Positions 26,238 to 38,728 of a stretch of DNA of 64,000 nt are shown in pieces; the stretch's first letter is position 1; each line of letters opens with the position of its first letter. The position numbers were made by a program, and so were the translations under genes. The notes below the pieces were generated by a model, which did not search any database, was not told the origin of the DNA, and saw nothing but the letters and a program-made list of their open reading frames with translations. The DNA comes from Blastococcus sp. CT_GayMR19 (lineage in GTDB: Bacteria; Actinomycetota; Actinomycetes; Mycobacteriales; Geodermatophilaceae), in contig NZ_SPQL01000002.1 of NCBI RefSeq assembly GCF_004570385.1, forward strand, positions 186,001 through 250,000, given 5' to 3'.

Positions 26238-26585
26238 CGGCGCCTCCGTTGTCGAACCCCGCCAGTGTCGGCCCGCCTCTCGGAGGCGCCCTGCCCTTTC
26301 GGGTAGACGGTGGGGCACAGCCTGGGGACGACGGGCCGGAGGTCGGTGGCAGCCGGCCACCCGCACCGACCGGCTGCGCGCCCTGATCCGCGGCGGGTGG
26401 CAACAACAGGGGCGGCGGTCGGGTGAGGTGCGGCCCGGCGGCGGTCCTCGCATCGGACCGGCCGGGCCGGCTGACCGGTCCTCACCCTGATGGGGGGCAG
26501 ACAACTCAACCGCCCGCCCGGATCGGCCGACTGTGGTGTACATGACAAGCAGTCGAGGGCGTCGGACCGTCGTCCGGGCTGCAGC
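26238..26585. other. Divergent intergenic region without a clear gene
   Basis: About 350 bp between two divergent starts. The cyclase frame extends upstream to 26490, so its true start could lie inside this region. No hairpin, repeat or other gene is supported; it presumably holds both promoters. Confidence 0.4.
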
Positions 26586-28733
26586 GTGACCGGGCAGGGC
26601 GTCGAGGCCGAGCCCCGGGAGACCTCCGGCGCCGTGACCTCCAGCCTGCTCCGCTACGTGCGGGCCCAGGGTGGCGAGGACGCCGTCACGGAGGTCCTCC
26701 GCCGGGCGGACGTGCGGCACGACGTCGAGGAACTCGAGAACCCCTCCAGGTGGTGGAGCTACGAGACCCGCCGTCGGTTGTACTCGGCAGCGACCGAGGT
26801 GCTCGCCGACCCGGAGACGCTGTTCAAGGTCGGCTGCGCGGCCGTCACGAACGGCCTGGCACCGTCGCTGATCCTCGTCCTGCGGGCGGTCGGTTCACCG
26901 CGGCAGGTGTACCGGCGGGTTCCGCAGGTCATGGCCAAGTTCACCACCACGTCCACGATGGAGATCCTGGACGTGGAGGCGACGTCGGCCACCATCGTCT
27001 ACCGCGCACAGCCGGGGCACACCCACTCGCGGATGGACTGCAAGTACGCCCGGGGACTGCTGACCACGGTGCCGACGCTCTTCGGCCTGCCGCCCGCCCA
27101 GATCGAGCATTCCCACTGCGAGCCCGAGGGGCACCCGGACTGCACCTACCACCTCAGCTGGCAGCAACGGTCCTGGCTGGGGCGGCGCCGGACCGATCGC
27201 TCGTCCAAGGACCTGGACGTCGCCTCCCTGCAGGGTCAGCTGCGGGCACTGCAGTCGGCGGCCGCCGAGCTCGTGTCCAGCGACGACCTCGAGACCGTCC
27301 TCCCGCGGATCGTGGCCCGCGCCGGAGAAGCCGTCCTCGCGCCCGCCCACCTCCTGGCCGTCTCGGCCCCCGCTGGTGGTCCACCGCTCGTGCACAGCGT
27401 CGGGCTCGCACCGGAGGACGCGGAGAGGCTCGCCGCCGCCCTCCTCGCGGGGGAGGACCTCGATGTCCCGGCCGTGGTGGTGGACGTCGCCTCCACGCGT
27501 CACCGGCACGGCCGTCTGGCCGCCATCTACCCGCCCGGGTACGGAGTGGTCGGTGCCGAGCGCTCCGTGCTCGCGGCGTACGCCGACCACACCGCCGCGG
27601 CGCTCGACCTCCTGATCGCCCTCAAGGACGCGAAGGTCGACGCCGACCGGGTCGGCGCGGCGCTCCACCTCGCGCACGAGCTGGCCACGGCCGTCGACGT
27701 CGCGACCGTCTGCGACGTGGTCACCGATGCGCTGCCGCGCATGGTCGGCTGCACGAGTGCCTCTCTCATGCTGTGGGATTCGGCGTCACGCCGGCTGCGG
27801 ACACAGGCGGCCGCCGGGCTGGACCCGGCCGGCACCCGGCGCCTGCTGGGCGCCGCGTTCGACCCGGACGACGTGCCGGAGCTGGCCGGGATCCTCACCG
27901 ACGGCGAGCCACGCATCCTCGCCTCGCACGGGAACAGTCCGGCGGTGGAGGGCCTCCTGCGCGACCTGCGGTTGGCCGACGCGGTGGTCATGCCGCTGGT
28001 GGCCGACGGCGGAATCCTCGGCGTCGCCACGGCGAGCTGGGAAGCCGGGGAGAGCCCGGCCCTGCTGGGCGACGTGCTGGCCCGGCTCCGTGGTGTCGCC
28101 GACCAGGCCTCCACGGCGTTGCAGAAGGCACGACTGCTCGAGGCCGTGCGTCACCAGGCCTCGCACGACGCGCTGACCGGGCTGCCGAACCGGGTGCTGT
28201 TCCTCGAGCAGCTGGAGGCAGCGCTGGCCAGGACGGAGGCCGGGGAGCACGTGGCCGTCCTCTTCTGCGACCTCGACGGGTTCAAGGAGGTCAACGACAC
28301 CGTGGGACACGCGGCGGGCGACGAGCTGTTGCAGCAGGTGGCGGAGCGGCTGCGGGCCTCGGTCCGCCCCGACGACACCGTCGGCCGGCTCAGCGGGGAC
28401 GAGTTCGCCGTCATCCTCCCGGGCGTGGCGGGCGACGACGACGCAGCGGCACTGGCCGGCCGGCTGCTCGGGTGCTTCGACGAGCCCTTCCCGCTCGAGG
28501 CGGGCGACGTCCGCATCGGGAGCAGTGTGGGCGTGGCCGTGCATGCCGGCGGCGATGTCGTGGCCGAACAGCTGCTGCGCACTGCCGATGCGGCCATGTA
28601 CCGGGACAAGAACGTGCGGCGAGCACGACGCGCGTCCGAACACGGTCGCGGGGGCGGTCACGGCGTGACCGGGCCTCGGAACCGGTCGAGGGTGTCGACG
28701 ACCGCCACTCCGATGCACCGGCTGCACGACTGA
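26586..28733 (+). CDS. V4R/GAF-containing diguanylate cyclase (GGDEF)
   Basis: A soluble protein of about 715 residues. The N-terminal domain (to about 195) ends in a HCEPEGHPDCTYHLSW motif like V4R/haem-NO-binding-associated domains, with Cys and His that could bind metal or haem. Two GAF-like regions follow (about 220-330 and 350-510), then GGDEF (DALTGLPNRVLF, CDLDGFKEVNDTVGHAAGD, signature S-G-D-E-F, and a late ADAAMYRDKN). The S-for-G change in the signature is tolerated in active cyclases. The start is uncertain: GTG codons at 26586 and 26634 and an ATG at 26490 are all possible. It ends at a strong terminator. Confidence 0.85.
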   Translation: MTGQGVEAEPRETSGAVTSSLLRYVRAQGGEDAVTEVLRRADVRHDVEELENPSRWWSYETRRRLYSAATEVLADPETLFKVGCAAVTNGLAPSLILVLRAVGSPRQVYRRVPQVMAKFTTTSTMEILDVEATSATIVYRAQPGHTHSRMDCKYARGLLTTVPTLFGLPPAQIEHSHCEPEGHPDCTYHLSWQQRSWLGRRRTDRSSKDLDVASLQGQLRALQSAAAELVSSDDLETVLPRIVARAGEAVLAPAHLLAVSAPAGGPPLVHSVGLAPEDAERLAAALLAGEDLDVPAVVVDVASTRHRHGRLAAIYPPGYGVVGAERSVLAAYADHTAAALDLLIALKDAKVDADRVGAALHLAHELATAVDVATVCDVVTDALPRMVGCTSASLMLWDSASRRLRTQAAAGLDPAGTRRLLGAAFDPDDVPELAGILTDGEPRILASHGNSPAVEGLLRDLRLADAVVMPLVADGGILGVATASWEAGESPALLGDVLARLRGVADQASTALQKARLLEAVRHQASHDALTGLPNRVLFLEQLEAALARTEAGEHVAVLFCDLDGFKEVNDTVGHAAGDELLQQVAERLRASVRPDDTVGRLSGDEFAVILPGVAGDDDAAALAGRLLGCFDEPFPLEAGDVRIGSSVGVAVHAGGDVVAEQLLRTADAAMYRDKNVRRARRASEHGRGGGHGVTGPRNRSRVSTTATPMHRLHD

Positions 28734-32612: not shown

Positions 32613-33488
32613 TCAGCCGCGGGCGAAGATCCCGGTACCGAAGGCGCCGTTGCCGACCAGCACGCGGGCGAATCCCTTCCCCAGCTCGGTGGCCCGTGCG
32701 GTGCGCTCGGCGCCGAGGTGCTCCCAGGGCGCGGCCGAGAGGGCGTCGGTCTCCGCCTCGACGCGGGCCCGCAGGTCCTCGCCCTCGGCGGAGAGCCCGC
32801 CGTCATCGAGCAGCCCACGCTCGGCCAGCGCGGCGCAGCAGGCGGCCCACTCCTCGTCGCGCCACCCGCGGCTGGCCTTGGCCGCCGCCTCGGTGAAGCC
32901 CCGGCCGGTGGCGGTGTGGGTGACCAGCGCCTCCAGCCCGCTGAGCCCGGAACGGAGGAGCGCGGCCACGTGCCCGTCACCGCGGTACTCACGCAGCAGC
33001 GTGACGCCGTGCCACACCTGCAGGAGCGGCTCGTGGGGCCACGGCAGGTCGGCGTGCCCGGCGTAGAGCGCGCGGCCCTCCGGCGTCAGGACGGTGCACG
33101 CCTCCCTGAGCAGCGCGGCCAGCTCCGGCACCGCGACCGCATCCGGACCACCCAGCAGCCGGGTGAGCGACGCACGCGCCGCGTCCAGGCGGGCCGCGAG
33201 CACCTGCTCGGGCGAGGCGATCGTCCACGCGCGCGGGATCATGTGCGCGACCAGGGACGGCGAGAAGTTGTAGAACGTCGCCGTCACGACGCCGGCGCCC
33301 ACCGGACCCATCGCGGCCGCACGGCCGGCGAAGTAGGACATGCGGCCGGCCTTCAGACCCAGCCCGGACAGCCGCTCATCGAGCTCGGGCGCGAAGTAGA
33401 TCTGCGCGTGCAGCGGCTCGACGGCGCGGTGCGCGCGGGCGACCACGGCGAGATCGAGAGCGGACGCGGGTCGATCGACGCTGACCAT
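32613..33488 (-). CDS. SCO6745-like actinobacterial protein
   Basis: A 291-residue, mostly helical protein beginning MVSVDRPASALDLAVVARAHRAVEPLHAQIYFAPELDE, with YFAGRAAAMGPVGAGVVTATFYNFSPSLVAHMIPRAW, a combination I associate with the SCO6745 family of uncharacterised actinobacterial proteins. The C-terminal half has a winged-helix-like stretch (AALAERGLLDDGGLSAEGEDLRARVEAETD). No catalytic residues are known. It diverges from kaiC with about 110 bp between the starts, so the two could share regulation, but no functional link is established. Confidence 0.8.
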   Translation of the reverse strand: MVSVDRPASALDLAVVARAHRAVEPLHAQIYFAPELDERLSGLGLKAGRMSYFAGRAAAMGPVGAGVVTATFYNFSPSLVAHMIPRAWTIASPEQVLAARLDAARASLTRLLGGPDAVAVPELAALLREACTVLTPEGRALYAGHADLPWPHEPLLQVWHGVTLLREYRGDGHVAALLRSGLSGLEALVTHTATGRGFTEAAAKASRGWRDEEWAACCAALAERGLLDDGGLSAEGEDLRARVEAETDALSAAPWEHLGAERTARATELGKGFARVLVGNGAFGTGIFARG

Positions 33489-33596
33489 GCGCCGCACCCT
33501 AGCGATGCGTGGCAGGACGCCGTCGGCGGCGGCGTTGATCCCTTCCCCGGCCCCGGTTCCCGCGACTAGCTTGATCGAAGCCAAGCGGGAGGACCT

Positions 33597-35342
33597 ATGG
33601 CGGCGACGATCCACCCGCCCAGAACGGCGCCGTCCACCAGGTCCGCGCTGGTCAAAGCACCGACGGGCATCCGCGGGTTCGACGAGCTCACCGGCGGTGG
33701 GCTGCCCCACGGCCGGGCGACCCTGGTCACCGGAGGCCCGGGCTCGTGCAAGACGTTGTTCGGGCTGGAGTTCCTGGTGCGCGGTGCAGAGGAATTCGAC
33801 GAGCCGGGCGTCCTCCTGGCGTTCGAGGAGTCGGCCACCGACCTGACGGAGAACGTCGCCTCGCTCGGCTTCGACCTGGCCGGACTCGAGGCCGACGGGC
33901 GCCTGGTCATCGATGCGGTCCGGATCGATGCGTCCGAGATCGTGACCACGGGGGAGTTCGACCTCGACGGCCTGTTCATCCGCTTGGCCGCGGCAGTGCA
34001 GTCGGTGGGGGCCCGGCGGGTGGTCCTGGACACGATCGAGGTGCTGTTCGGCGCGCTGGGCGACGAGGCGATCGTGCGGAACGAGTTCAGCCGGCTGCTG
34101 CGGTGGCTCAAGGACCACGAGCTCACCACCGTGATCACCGGTGAGCGTGGCCCGGAAGGGCAGCTGACGCGGTTCGGCATCGAGGAGTACGCCTCCGACT
34201 GTGTGCTCGTCCTCGATCACCGGATGCGCGACGAGATCGCCACCCGGCGGCTGCGGGTGGTGAAGTACCGCGGATCGGCGCACGGCACGAACGAGTATCC
34301 GTTCCTGGTCACCGACCGTGGCCTGCGGGTCTGGCCCATCACCTCGACCGCGCTCACCTACGCGGTCTCCACCGAACGCGTGTCGCTGGGCGTGCCGCAA
34401 CTGGACGAGATGCTGGGCGGCGGCGTCTACCGCGGCTCCACCGTCCTGATCACCGGCACCGCCGGCACGGGGAAGACGACGCTGGCGGCGTCCGCGGTCG
34501 ACGCGGCCTGTGCCCGCGGGGAATCGGCCCTGTTCGTGTCCTTCGAGGAGTCCCCGGACCAGATCATCCGCAACCTGAGGTCGGTCGGGATCGACCTGGG
34601 CCGGTGGGTGGACGACGGGCTGCTGCGGTTGTGGGGCGAGCGGGCGACCGCCTTCGGCCTGGAGGCACACCTGTCGGCGATCGAGCGGCTGCTGGAGGAG
34701 TCCGAACCGGCCGTCGCCGTCCTGGACGCGGTCGGCAGTCTCAGCAACGTCGGCGCGGAGGCGGAAGTGACGTCGGCCGTCGTCCGCGAGGTGGACATGA
34801 TGAAGTCGCGCGGTGTCACCGCGATCCTGACCAGCCTGAACCACGACGCGCAGCGGGAGTCCAGCTCAGTTGCGGTCTCGTCCGTGGTCGACACCTGGCT
34901 GCTGCTGCGCAACGTGGAGAGCGACGGCGAACGCAACCGGCTGTTGTTCGTGATGAAGAGCAGGGGGACGGCGCACTCGAACCAGGTGCGCGAGTTCCTC
35001 CTCACCGACCACGGCGCCGAACTGCTGGACGTCACCGTCGGCGCCCGTGGTGTCCTGACCGGCTCGGCCCGGCTGGCACAGGCCGCCGAGGAGCGCGCGG
35101 CCGCGGCCGACCGGAGCGCCGAACTGGAGCGGCGACGCCTGGCACTCGAGCGGCGCACCGCCGAGGTCGACGCCCAGGTCGCCGCCCTCCACGCGCAACT
35201 GGCGACCGAGAGCGCCGAGCTCGATCGGCTGGCGGCCGAGGAGACCCGTGGCGCGGACGCTCGCGCGGCGGACCGGGAACGCCTCGCCCGCCGACGCGAG
35301 AGCGGACCCGCCGACGGTCGATCCGAAGCTCGGGATGGGTGA
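33597..35342 (+). CDS. kaiC: KaiC-like double-domain RecA-family ATPase
   Basis: A 581-residue protein of two KaiC domains. CI: Walker A GGPGSCKT at 46-53 and catalytic E77-E78. CII: Walker A GTAGTGKT at 287-294 and E317-E318. These positions match Synechococcus KaiC within one residue. Aligning VVDTWLLLR with cyanobacterial ITDTIILLQ places the phospho-acceptor pair at S428-S429 (Ser-Thr in cyanobacteria). Cys51 replaces the last Gly of the CI P-loop. About 75-100 extra C-terminal residues form an Ala/Glu/Arg-rich coiled coil. Family knowledge: a hexameric autokinase/phosphatase ATPase of the circadian oscillator or, in non-cyanobacteria, stress and daily timing. GGGAGGA precedes the ATG. 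First gene of the kai operon. Confidence 0.95.
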
Positions 35343-35343
35343 C

Positions 35344-35673
35344 ATGGACGCCAACGGCCCGGCCCACGACGACGGGTCCGACTCGTCACCGATGTACGAA
35401 CTGCGCCTCTATCTCGCCGGGCACAGCCCCAAGTCCGTGCGGGCGGTGGAGAACCTGCGCCGCACGTGCGAGGAGTACCTCCCGGGGCGCTACCGGATCG
35501 AGCTGGTCGACCTCCTCGAGAACCCGCAGCTCGCCCGTGGTGACGAGATCATCGCCGTCCCGACGCTGGTCCGGAAGCTCCCCGAGCCCGTCCGCAAGAT
35601 CATCGGCGACCTGTCGGACACCGAGAAGCTGCTGGTCGGCTTGCAGCTGCGCAGCGCCGGCGGCCGGCAGTGA
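35344..35673 (+). CDS. kaiB: KaiB domain protein, first copy
   Basis: A 109-residue thioredoxin-like protein. The KaiB core is [33 protein letters not shown]..., then [28 protein letters not shown] and [15 protein letters not shown], containing the G-D-L-S-D element where cyanobacterial KaiB has fold-switch residues. Its ATG is 1 nt after the kaiC stop, and its stop overlaps the second kaiB by 4 nt. Family knowledge: fold-switched KaiB binds the KaiC CI ring. An in-frame ATG at 35335 would overlap kaiC. Confidence in the family is high. Confidence 0.94.
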
Positions 35674-35996
35674 CGGCCCCGGACGACGACTCCCCCCACT
35701 GGTCGCTGAGGCTGTACGTCAGCGGCGCCTCCCCCCACTCCGCGCAGGCCCTCGAGACGGTCCGGCGCCTCTGCGACGAGGAACTCGCGGGGCAGGTCGA
35801 GCTCGAGGTGGTCGACGTCGCCGACGAACCCGACCTCGCCGCCCGGGACCGGATCGTGGCCGTACCCACCCTGGTCAGGCGGCTGCCCCCGCCGCCGCGT
35901 CAACTCGTGGGGGACCTGGCCGACGTCGACCGGGTCCGCGCCGGGCTCGACCTGGGTCCCCCGCCGTCGCAGCCACCCGTTCCGGGCGCGCCATGA
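35670..35996 (+). CDS. KaiB domain protein, second copy
   Basis: A 108-residue second KaiB domain, beginning (GTG) [31 protein letters not shown] and sharing the core [42 protein letters not shown] with the first copy; the C-terminus is Pro-rich. It is clearly diverged from the first KaiB, so this is an old duplication. Start and stop overlap the flanking genes by 4 nt each (GTGA and ATGA), giving strict translational coupling. It could compete with or replace the first KaiB on KaiC, or bind the phosphatase; no evidence decides. Confidence 0.92.
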
Positions 35997-37696
35997 CCCA
36001 CCCGCCGGAGAACGCCGTCGACGAGCTGGGCCGGCTCCGTTCCCAGATCCAGGACCTGGACAGGGCGCTCACCGCGATCCGGGCGGGGGACGTCGACGCG
36101 GTGGTGCTGGGCGGTCCGCACGGTTCCCAGCTGTACACGCTGGTCAGCGCCGACCGGCCGTACCGGGTGATCGTCGAGGGGATGGGCGACGGCGCCGTCA
36201 CCGTCTCCGAGCGCGGGATCATCCTGTACGCCAACCTGCGGCTGGCCGATCTGGTCGGAGCCGACCGCGCCGCGCTCCTCGGCCGGGAGGTCACCGAGCT
36301 CGTCGACGCGTCCGCGGCCGGAACGCTCTCGTCCCTGCTGGCCGCCACCGACCCCGGCACCACCCACCAGGCGGAGCTCGAGCTCGTCCACGCGGAAGGC
36401 TCCGCCGTGCCGGTGCTCGCCTCGGTGACCGGCCTGGACATCGAGGGCGTCATCGTCCGGTGCCTCGTCCTCGCCGACCTCACCGACCGGCGCCGCGGCG
36501 AAGAGCAACTGGCCGGCGCCTACGCAGAGCTGAGCCGGTCGGCGCACGAGCTGGAGGAGGCGCAGCGGATCGGCCGGATCGGCAGCTGGTTCTGGGATCC
36601 GGCCACCGACGAGATCACCTGCTCCACCCAGATCTTCCGCATCCTCGGCATCGAACCCACGCCGAGCGAAACTTTGCTGCGGCCCACCCTGGCCGGCTTC
36701 TTCCACCCCGAGGACGCGTCGCTGGCCACCACGGCGCGCGAACGCGCGCTCGCCGACCGCCGGCCGTTCGTCATCGAGCAGCGGGTCGTCCAGGCCGACG
36801 GGGACGTGCGACAGACCGTGACCCGGGGGGAGGTCGTCGCCGATGCCGACGGCGCGGTGGCCGGGATGCGTGGCACGACGCAGGACGTGACGGAGCAGCG
36901 CCGGGCGGCGACGGCCGTCCTCGAGGCCCGCGCGGCACTGATGAGCCAGACGATGGAGCTGGCCGAGGAGCACCGGGTGAAGGAGTCGCTGCAGCGCGCG
37001 GTCCTGCCGGCCCGGCTGCCCTCCGTCGCGGGAGTGGAACTCGCCGCGCGGTATCTGCCCGCCGACATGCCGTCCCTGGTCGGCGGCGACTGGTACGACG
37101 CCTTCTGCCTGCCGGACGGCGGCCTGGCCGTCGCCACGGGGGACGTCGTCGGTCACGACCTGGACGCGGCGGCCACGATGGGCCAGGTACGCAACGCCCT
37201 GCGGGCCTACGCGTTCAGCGACGATCCCCCGGCCGGGGTCCTCGCGCGGCTCAACGGGCTGATCACCGGTCTGGGCGACAACGGCCTGGCCACCGCGCTG
37301 TTCGGGCGCATCGACCCCGCGCAGCGCATGTTCCGGTGGTCGTCCGGGGGGCATCCGCCGCCGCTGCTGATCGGCGCGGCCGGCGTCCGCCTCCTGTCCT
37401 GCCCGGCGGGAGTGATGCTGGGCGCCGTCCCGGCGGCCCACTACGCCGACGCGCACGCGGCGGTCGAGCCGGACGACCTGCTCGTGCTCTACACGGACGG
37501 CCTGATCGAGCGGCGGGACCGTGACCTGGACGAGGGGTTCGCCGCCCTCGCCCGAGCAGCGGGGGACCTCCACGGCGAGCCCGCCGAGGCCGTCTGCGCG
37601 GCCCTGATGGAGCGCCTGCTGCCTGGCGAGGAGCACGAGGACGACGTCTGTCTCCTCGTGCTCCGCGTCCTGCCGCCCGACAGTCCACGGCAGTAG
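35993..37696 (+). CDS. PAS-PAS-PP2C (RsbU/SpoIIE-type) phosphatase, last gene of the kai operon
   Basis: A 567-residue protein. An N-terminal helix and conserved segment (ALTAIRAGDVDAVVLGG) precedes one PAS domain (about 60-165), then a second, PAC-linked one (about 190-305), a coiled linker, and a SpoIIE phosphatase from about residue 325. Metal-binding acidic residues are visible in GGDWYDAF (364-371), TGDVVGHDLDAA, YTDGLIE and HEDDVCLLVL. Family knowledge: such enzymes dephosphorylate anti-sigma antagonists and switch on alternative sigma factors. Its ATG overlaps the second kaiB by 4 nt, suggesting it is the output of, or an input to, the KaiC/KaiB switch. Confidence 0.93.
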   Translation: MTHPPENAVDELGRLRSQIQDLDRALTAIRAGDVDAVVLGGPHGSQLYTLVSADRPYRVIVEGMGDGAVTVSERGIILYANLRLADLVGADRAALLGREVTELVDASAAGTLSSLLAATDPGTTHQAELELVHAEGSAVPVLASVTGLDIEGVIVRCLVLADLTDRRRGEEQLAGAYAELSRSAHELEEAQRIGRIGSWFWDPATDEITCSTQIFRILGIEPTPSETLLRPTLAGFFHPEDASLATTARERALADRRPFVIEQRVVQADGDVRQTVTRGEVVADADGAVAGMRGTTQDVTEQRRAATAVLEARAALMSQTMELAEEHRVKESLQRAVLPARLPSVAGVELAARYLPADMPSLVGGDWYDAFCLPDGGLAVATGDVVGHDLDAAATMGQVRNALRAYAFSDDPPAGVLARLNGLITGLGDNGLATALFGRIDPAQRMFRWSSGGHPPPLLIGAAGVRLLSCPAGVMLGAVPAAHYADAHAAVEPDDLLVLYTDGLIERRDRDLDEGFAALARAAGDLHGEPAEAVCAALMERLLPGEEHEDDVCLLVLRVLPPDSPRQ

Positions 37697-37828: not shown

Positions 37829-38728
37829 TCATCTTGCTTCCAGTCCGAACAGGCGAGCCCCGTTGCGCCACAGGACGGCGCGCAGCCACTCCTCCCCCAG
37901 CTCCAGCCGGTGCAGCGCCTGGAGCTGGTGCGCGTAGGCGTACGGGATGCTCGGGAAGTCGCTGCCGAGGAGGACCTTGTCCCGGAGCGCTCGCAGCCGT
38001 GGCCGCAGGGCCGGGTCGAAGGGCATCAGCCGCTCGATGAAGTCGGTGGCGAACATGGTGGTGTCCAGGTGCACGAGCTCGTGGTGCTCGGCGAGGTCCA
38101 GGAACTCGGCGTACTCCGGCATGCCGAGATGGGCGATGACGAGCTGCAGCCGCGGGTACCGCTGCAGCAGCCCGGTCACCGGCGCCGGCCCGGTGTGCTC
38201 CCCCACCAGCGGGCCCGATCCGCAGTGGATGACCACCGGCGTCCCGCTGTCCTCGAGCTGCGCCCACACGTCGTCGAGGAGCGGGTCGCGCGGGTCGAAC
38301 CGGCCCACCTGCACGTGCACCTTGAAAACCCGAGCGCCGCGGTCGAGGGCCTGCCCGACGTAGCCCGCGGCCTCCGGTTCGGGGTAGAAGGTCGCGGAGG
38401 AGAGCACCTGCGGGCGGGCCCGCGCGAACTCCGCCGACCACTCGTTCAGCCACGCGGCCATCCCCGGCTTGTGCGGGTACGGCAGCGTCGGGAACGCGCG
38501 TACACCCAGCCGGTCGAGGACGGCGAGCCGGTCCTCCACCGGCACCGGGTACTCGACCGGCCACGGAGCGCCGTAGTGCGTGACCGCCTCGGCGAAGTAC
38601 TGCCAGACCTTGGCCTGCACCGGGTCGGGGAGGAAGTGCACGTGCGCGTCGACCAGCCCGGGCAGGCCGAGCTCCCGCCAGTACCGGGGGACGTCGGCGT
38701 CGTCGGCCGGCGGGAGCACCAGGGTCAT
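37829..38728 (-). CDS. Metal-dependent amidohydrolase (ACMSD-like)
   Basis: A 299-residue TIM-barrel hydrolase of the amidohydrolase-2 family. The metal motif LVDAHVHFLPD (H-x-H) is near residue 28. A His follows in PVVIHCGSGP, another in LVIAHLGMPEY, and the catalytic Asp is in VLLGSDFPSIPYAY. Family knowledge: these enzymes decarboxylate or hydrolyse small carboxylates. It overlaps the oxidoreductase gene by 4 nt, which in turn overlaps smpB, so all three are co-translated; the link to ribosome rescue may be only positional. Confidence 0.9.
   Translation of the reverse strand: MTLVLPPADDADVPRYWRELGLPGLVDAHVHFLPDPVQAKVWQYFAEAVTHYGAPWPVEYPVPVEDRLAVLDRLGVRAFPTLPYPHKPGMAAWLNEWSAEFARARPQVLSSATFYPEPEAAGYVGQALDRGARVFKVHVQVGRFDPRDPLLDDVWAQLEDSGTPVVIHCGSGPLVGEHTGPAPVTGLLQRYPRLQLVIAHLGMPEYAEFLDLAEHHELVHLDTTMFATDFIERLMPFDPALRPRLRALRDKVLLGSDFPSIPYAYAHQLQALHRLELGEEWLRAVLWRNGARLFGLEAR

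Follow-up and report, generated by a model that had tools for sequence, protein, structure and literature searches.

Four genes on the forward strand of a 64,000-nucleotide stretch of the genome of the soil actinobacterium Blastococcus sp. CT_GayMR19 (contig NZ_SPQL01000002.1, positions 186,001 to 250,000; the window hereafter) form a kai operon whose fourth protein, a PAS-PAS-SpoIIE/PP2C phosphatase, carries a conserved module of about 56 residues ahead of its first PAS domain. This shared module links the phosphatase with other Kai-linked output proteins, and we consider it somewhat more probable than the contrary that it serves as a general docking plug of KaiB-KaiC2 timers, behind which at least five outputs have been swapped, the window containing the phosphatase version with a line to sigma-factor control. 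The order of the genes is already known, and the unusual part of the operon is the phosphatase occupying the fourth place. The operon consists of kaiC (33597..35342, 581 amino acids), which encodes a double-domain ATPase/autokinase assigned to the KaiC2 type (two Pfam KaiC domains, E 1.4e-105), a first kaiB (35344..35673, 109 amino acids, Pfam KaiB 2e-25), a second kaiB with a GTG start (35670..35996, 108 amino acids, Pfam KaiB 1e-23), and the phosphatase gene (35993..37696, 567 amino acids, Pfam SpoIIE 1.3e-50 and two PAS domains), all organized in a single tightly coupled unit (33597-37696). One nucleotide separates kaiC from the first kaiB, the two kaiB genes overlap by 4 nucleotides (GTGA), and the second kaiB overlaps the phosphatase gene by another 4 (ATGA). 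The coordinates and the translational coupling given in an earlier sequence-only reading of the window were exact, and its proposal of a KaiBC system that lacks KaiA and is paired with a PP2C is supported; no KaiA occurs within the operon (a genome-wide KaiA search was not made). Its further step to a sigma factor stays conjectural, and it did not mention the KaiC tail, the Cys in the CI Walker A motif or the module.

The module (residues 11-66 of the fourth protein; 36023..36190, forward strand), delineated from an alignment, genome scans and an AlphaFold model, comprises a helix, a β-hairpin and a second helix. Its 61-row alignment contains three invariant columns (Asp35, Arg58 and Met64) and yields the consensus ExxxLRxRLxEAEETLxAIRxGEVDAxVVxGxxGxQxxTLxGADxPYRVLIExMxE. 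Over 52 proteins, conservation reaches 2.6-2.9 bits per column in the module, as compared to 2.1 bits in the PAS core. No named family corresponds to the module in Pfam, and a sequence search of the PDB with the module gave 13 matches (best E 0.031), none of them a PAS or Kai protein. In the model of residues 1-180, which has a mean predicted local distance difference test score (pLDDT) of 88.5, the first helix extends over residues 6-31, the hairpin over residues 36-41/44-49 and the second helix over residues 55-63, followed by the PAS domain; a Foldseek search with the module-PAS model had ordinary PAS domains among the matches listed. In Rhodobacter sphaeroides KD131, kaiC-kaiB is followed by an HWE kinase possessing the module helix and the VDALVV part (a search with the two sequences gave 51.5 bits). 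Since this kinase has lost the conserved end of the module, the likely contact is narrowed to the helix and the first strand.

The module is strongly associated with kai loci of the KaiC2 type. Among the loci with at least 1.5 kb of downstream sequence, a gene for a module protein lies downstream of kaiC in 66 of the 68 KaiC2-type loci (61 of 63 without the five found via the module), versus one of the 11 other kai loci. KaiB exceeds the Pfam cut-off in 22 of the 396 sampled Actinomycetota genomes, and is strong (E<1e-11) in 18 of them. At E<1e-8, 10 of these 396 genomes contain the module (11 places), nine of the 10 possessing a strong KaiB (Fisher p 8e-13, the genomes not being independent), and 10 of the 11 places adjoin kai genes. 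Similarly, all nine module places found at E<1e-6 in 299 Pseudomonadota genomes adjoin kaiB, with three weaker partial matches in addition; the module is present in 18 of the 20 genomes of known kai loci, and 13 of the 14 matches at E<1e-6 outside the rows of the model adjoin kaiB or kaiC. These module counts are lower bounds, and only part of the candidates was scored in some genomes. In one of the two KaiC2-type loci that lack it (L098:9689-11596), a KaiB is fused in frame to a PAS-GAF-histidine kinase, the helix-hairpin of the module is missing, and no match to the module occurs elsewhere in the genome; this apparent replacement is a hint, from one case, that the job of the module may consist in holding on to KaiB. 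The coiled-coil tail of KaiC was also considered as the docking site of the module and is ruled out, the KaiCs of two loci (L114 and L120) being tail-less and the module nevertheless kept. In a Methanosarcina locus (L202:4949-6977), a module protein accompanies two kaiBs, and the 11 kb examined contain no kaiC. A match on a Caballeronia plasmid (28.7%) belongs to a GGDEF/EAL-type protein located away from kai genes.

Depending on the locus, distinct catalytic domains occur behind the module. The 68 fourth proteins, called with small hidden Markov models seeded from Pfam boundaries, comprise 48 histidine kinases (15 of them carrying a receiver domain; both the KaiB fusion and a second copy from L101 are counted here), 7 GGDEF-EAL proteins, 4 PP2C phosphatases, 2 HD-GYP proteins, one GGDEF-HD-GYP protein and 6 uncalled proteins. 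Among the latter, two from Candidate division WOR-3 (L067:6715-8361 and L070:4732-6366), encoded after kaiC-kaiB, are built up from the module, a PAS domain and a sigma-54 activator with a Fis-type helix-turn-helix (HTH), one (L058) contains PAS and GAF only, and three (L056, L057 and L065) break off where the contig ends or close to that point. On the KaiC tree, a quick tree of 73 of the 94 KaiC rows with support from the Shimodaira-Hasegawa-like approximate likelihood-ratio test (SH-aLRT) only, the output type needs 10 changes, and the starred branches force 2 changes for PP2C and 5 for GGDEF-EAL, these counts depending on the choice of rows because 21 loci that were partial or nearly duplicate had been left out. 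In another locus (L114:5819-11337), two module proteins flank kaiC-kaiB-kaiB, of the HD-GYP type upstream and of the PP2C type downstream. According to an argument based on RsbU, PP2C phosphatases, histidine kinases and diguanylate cyclases have dimeric coiled-coil linkers in common, which make the N-terminal sensors exchangeable between PP2C, histidine kinase and GGDEF proteins (PMC12143880; this paper, like the others cited here, is drawn upon in part); by analogy, the Kai-linked fourth proteins look like such an exchange of sensors and outputs.

The KaiC of the operon is classified in the KaiC2 type, i.e., the KaiA-less hourglass class, because it aligns with R. sphaeroides KaiC through the tail, possesses the Ser-Ser and Glu-Glu pairs as well as the tail, and occupies a corresponding place in the KaiC tree, where the window falls inside the KaiC2 side of a starred branch (100*). 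Its closest solved chains are those of R. sphaeroides KaiC (8dba, 565 bits; 8fwi, 562 bits); the alignment with 8dba spans residues 18-568 and takes in the coiled-coil tail, and the protein is 52% identical to the KD131 KaiC over residues 20-490. The putative phosphosite pair of the CII domain, Ser428-Ser429 (34878..34883, forward strand), aligns with Ser-Ser in 8dba and with Glu-Glu in the phosphomimetic 8fwi. The catalytic Glu pairs are kept, as FEES in both CI and CII. The Walker A motif of CII is intact, and that of CI (33732..33755, forward strand) reads GGPGSCKT, a Gly to Cys change restricted to CI and shared with the closest named relative, Geodermatophilaceae bacterium URHB0062 (L047, KaiC 91% identical); the motif is an intact GGPGAGKT in L112, and an Ala replaces the corresponding Gly in some of the other KaiCs compared. 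The C-terminal coiled-coil-like tail, 95 amino acids long, aligns with the KaiC_RS dodecamer chain (about residues 487-568; 35055..35300, forward strand). Four loci (L111, L192, L193 and L195) were omitted from the comparison of motifs and tails as copies of L047, L058, L056 and L062, respectively. The R. sphaeroides KaiC is a KaiC2-group kinase, the tail of which builds a dodecamer, and it exhibits a KaiA-independent autophosphorylation, a KaiB-stimulated ATPase and a reset depending on the ATP/ADP ratio (PMC10076222).

The first KaiB has KaiB_RS (8fwj, E 1.2e-30) as its best solved match. In a tree of 87 KaiB domains, the first and second KaiBs of the two-kaiB loci (29 each) are split by a single change, as compared to a shuffled mean of about 24 changes for each group; individual forks of this tree are weak since the alignment has 88 columns only. 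This split suggests that the first and second KaiBs represent an old pair of separate lineages rather than a local duplication. In the 68 KaiC2-type loci that extend far enough downstream, kaiC is followed by one kaiB in 26, by two in 41 and by three in one. No further KaiB at E<=0.001 beyond the operon pair, and no second strong pair of KaiC domains, was found in the Blastococcus genome (4.57 Mb, 42 contigs).

Behind the module, the fourth protein comprises a first PAS domain (about residues 57-170; 36161..36502) recognized by Pfam and in the AlphaFold model, a second PAS domain (residues 208-295; 36614..36877; Pfam PAS_3) and the SpoIIE/PP2C catalytic domain (residues 374-559; 37112..37669), all on the forward strand. 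The closest solved chain to the SpoIIE domain is Rv1364c (3ke6, E 7.4e-25, residues 341-565), and the metal-binding motifs GGDWYD, GDVVGHD, TDGLIE and HEDDV are intact in the alignment. By analogy with partner-switching phosphatases, the enzyme probably acts on STAS anti-anti-sigma factors; the genome contains 16 SpoIIE matches and 16 STAS matches, 15 of which exceed the cut-off; the nearest STAS match is on the contig of the operon, at a distance of about 134 kb. As a fourth protein, PP2C occurs at a single chromosomal site in three Geodermatophilaceae genomes, and also in one distant relative (L114). A single inheritance of the two was considered and rejected, the window and L114 phosphatases being split on the KaiC tree by the 2 changes forced by starred branches; they are at best 30% identical and stand apart on the PP2C tree, where the window protein is placed near other phosphatases of its own genome, with no starred sister. 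Since both enzymes are placed apart, the phosphatase was apparently recruited on two occasions. No further PP2C case was gained in the family of genome G282, where the module occurs in two of 19 genomes and the contig of one (G887) ends before the output domain.

The sequence-only reading had proposed a search for the gene order in other actinobacteria and knew of no described system with it. The same four-gene order was indeed found in two further Geodermatophilaceae genomes, one of the same genus and one of another genus, and since it stands there at the same chromosomal place, the cluster is not a chance one; all three KaiB-positive genomes of the family (the window, L111 and L112) have these four genes between the same neighbours. 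The novelty of the order was not borne out, as kaiC1-kaiB2-kaiB1-kaiR1 has been described in Methylorubrum extorquens AM1 (PMC8069551) and the order recurs widely. A contig scan gave 64 kai loci, mostly from other phyla (many found by peptides of the window KaiC, in an uneven sample), and kaiC-kaiB(-kaiB)-PAS protein occurs in most of those long enough. A restriction of the four-gene order to actinobacteria is thus ruled out by its presence in Pseudomonadota, Verrucomicrobiota, Bacteroidota, Acidobacteriota, Planctomycetota and methanogens; across phyla, the fourth protein is usually a histidine kinase. A recent plasmid-borne arrival of the operon was equally rejected, the guanine-cytosine (GC) content and third-position GC matching those of the neighbours and the site being common to two genera (no search for the empty site was made).

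Taking as observed the gene content, order and conservation of the operon, its intact catalytic motifs and the tie of the module to KaiC2-type loci, we infer the docking, the direction of the signal, the substrate and the timing as follows. The KaiC2 would autophosphorylate on Ser428/429 at high ATP and dephosphorylate as the ATP/ADP ratio falls, and both KaiB paralogues would bind KaiC. Through its pre-PAS module, the fourth protein would then dock on the KaiB-KaiC complex, which would change the PAS dimer; this change is predicted to run down the helical linker and to activate or inactivate the PP2C domain. The phosphatase would act on phosphorylated STAS anti-anti-sigma factors encoded elsewhere in the genome, and the state of the timer would thereby set an alternative sigma factor. 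Such a KaiA-less KaiB-KaiC2 hourglass or energy timer, equipped with its own output enzyme through the docking of the module, is the reading that we judge a little likelier to be right than wrong.

Several observations weigh against it. The Cys in the CI Walker A motif of this genus implies that the CI ATPase may be weak. KaiB exceeds the cut-off in only three of 112 genomes of the family, a patchy occurrence that may reflect an older transfer or a loss of the operon. One KaiC2-type locus (L116) is devoid of the module, although another kai locus of its genome G349 (L115) does possess it; a weak module stands beside a KaiC of the other class (L119); and the exceptional actinobacterial genome G283 (77% complete, no KaiB found) encodes a module histidine kinase (L204:5233-6873) with no kai gene within 13 kb. 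In addition, the operon itself contains no STAS, anti-sigma or sigma gene. The module could also represent a conserved element that serves dimerisation or capping within a single PAS family, travelling with the operon and contacting neither KaiB nor KaiC. N-terminal helices are common in PAS proteins, and the AlphaFold monomer shows the helix and hairpin with moderate confidence (pLDDT about 71-77 by blocks over residues 21-60, about 71-90 over residues 11-60). In a partial-correlation test of co-evolution on the full set, the module leaned to KaiB more than PAS did, and not to KaiC, a leaning that was not clear in the two-kaiB subset. Such an element remains rather unlikely in view of the nearly exclusive co-occurrence of the module with KaiC2 loci despite repeated swaps of the catalytic domain, and of its loss in the single case where KaiB is fused to PAS.

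The direction of the signal might also be reversed, with the PAS protein delivering an input (redox, light or ligand) to KaiBC and the PP2C domain dephosphorylating Ser428/429 of KaiC to reset the timer. PAS domains sense, the phosphoserines of KaiC are a possible PP2C substrate, and the histidine kinase of the R. sphaeroides kaiBC operon has been proposed to relay a redox signal to KaiBC (PMC5520375, PMC10931921). However, GGDEF-EAL, HD-GYP and sigma-54 activator proteins, the latter with a DNA-binding HTH, would be implausible resetters of KaiC behind the same module, and KaiC_RS dephosphorylates itself via an ATP-synthase route (PMC10076222), so that we regard an input role as distinctly unlikely. 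With respect to timing, the sequence is as compatible with an energetic or stress switch as with a daily timer and cannot tell them apart. A KaiBC2 acting as a sensor of energy charge or stress, through the same physical coupling, has a substantial chance of being correct, if short of an even one: the reset of KaiC_RS requires a change in ATP/ADP (PMC10076222) and kaiC mutants of M. extorquens are altered in ultraviolet and heat resistance (PMC8069551), whereas kaiC of R. palustris affects fitness in 24-h cycles (PMC4794148).

No output pathway is recognised for the Kai proteins of organisms other than cyanobacteria. A module marking KaiC2 operons across bacteria and methanogens would offer a testable physical link from the timer to the cell and could help to predict what each kai system controls. 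If the docking plug is real, it would connect these timers to at least five outputs, i.e., histidine kinases, GGDEF-EAL proteins with cyclic di-GMP (c-di-GMP) turnover, HD-GYP proteins, sigma-54 activation and the PP2C phosphatase, and explain KaiBC signalling outside cyanobacteria without SasA, CikA or RpaA. Through the PP2C version, signalling by serine phosphatases and sigma factors would be joined to a Kai timer. As R. sphaeroides, for which the KaiBC structure is solved, also has the module, the idea is testable in an existing laboratory system.

With respect to known systems, SasA and CikA are dedicated output proteins of the cyanobacterial Kai oscillator, and SasA docks via a KaiB-like domain; the fourth protein of the window differs from both, Pfam reporting PAS and SpoIIE only, with no KaiB-like or pseudo-receiver docking domain and no histidine kinase. 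The partner-switching phosphatases of the RsbU, RsbP and Rv1364c type similarly have a SpoIIE/PP2C domain behind a PAS or helical sensor, but to our knowledge they have no Kai partner, and we know of no Kai-linked module in RsbP. One of the closest systems, KaiBC_RS of Rhodobacter (Cereibacter) sphaeroides KD131, resembles the operon in its KaiC2 class, Ser-Ser pair, coiled-coil tail, adjoining KaiB and module PAS kinase, and differs by a single kaiB instead of two, an HWE histidine kinase output and an intact CI Walker A motif. Known cyanobacterial output factors are reported missing for Kai systems outside cyanobacteria (PMC5520375), and kaiC-B-PAS/HK operons, HK denoting a histidine kinase, were described in R. 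palustris and R. sphaeroides (PMC4794148). The M. extorquens operon likewise comprises kaiC, two kaiBs and a further gene, the product of which, KaiR1, is not described as a PP2C in the consulted part of PMC8069551. Histidine kinase or PAS/PAC GGDEF-EAL genes beside kaiC-kaiB, thus signalling genes directly downstream as in the window, were reported in 2011 (PMC3164672); in the parts of that paper drawn upon, PP2C, HD-GYP and sigma-54 outputs are not named, and a shared N-terminal consensus is noted only for a different, kaiB-less group of kinases. In the literature searched (open-licence, mostly titles and abstracts), neither a kai operon with a PP2C/SpoIIE gene, nor an HD-GYP or sigma-54 kai output, nor a shared module was found.

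The operon stands alone because the upstream neighbour, an HTH_67 gene (32613-33488), is divergent and the downstream neighbour, an amidohydrolase gene (37829-38728), is convergent. Upstream of kaiC, no match to the sigma-70 consensus occurs near the box GACTAGCTTG (33564..33573, forward strand). A scan for promoters and terminators gave 0 sites, and an Rfam scan gave 0 matches. The box itself has 9 of 10 bases identical across the window, L047 and L112, whereas its flanks differ; it is a possible -10 element. Further upstream, the window encodes a GAF-GGDEF protein (26490-28733), possibly a c-di-GMP enzyme, which is unlinked to the kai operon.

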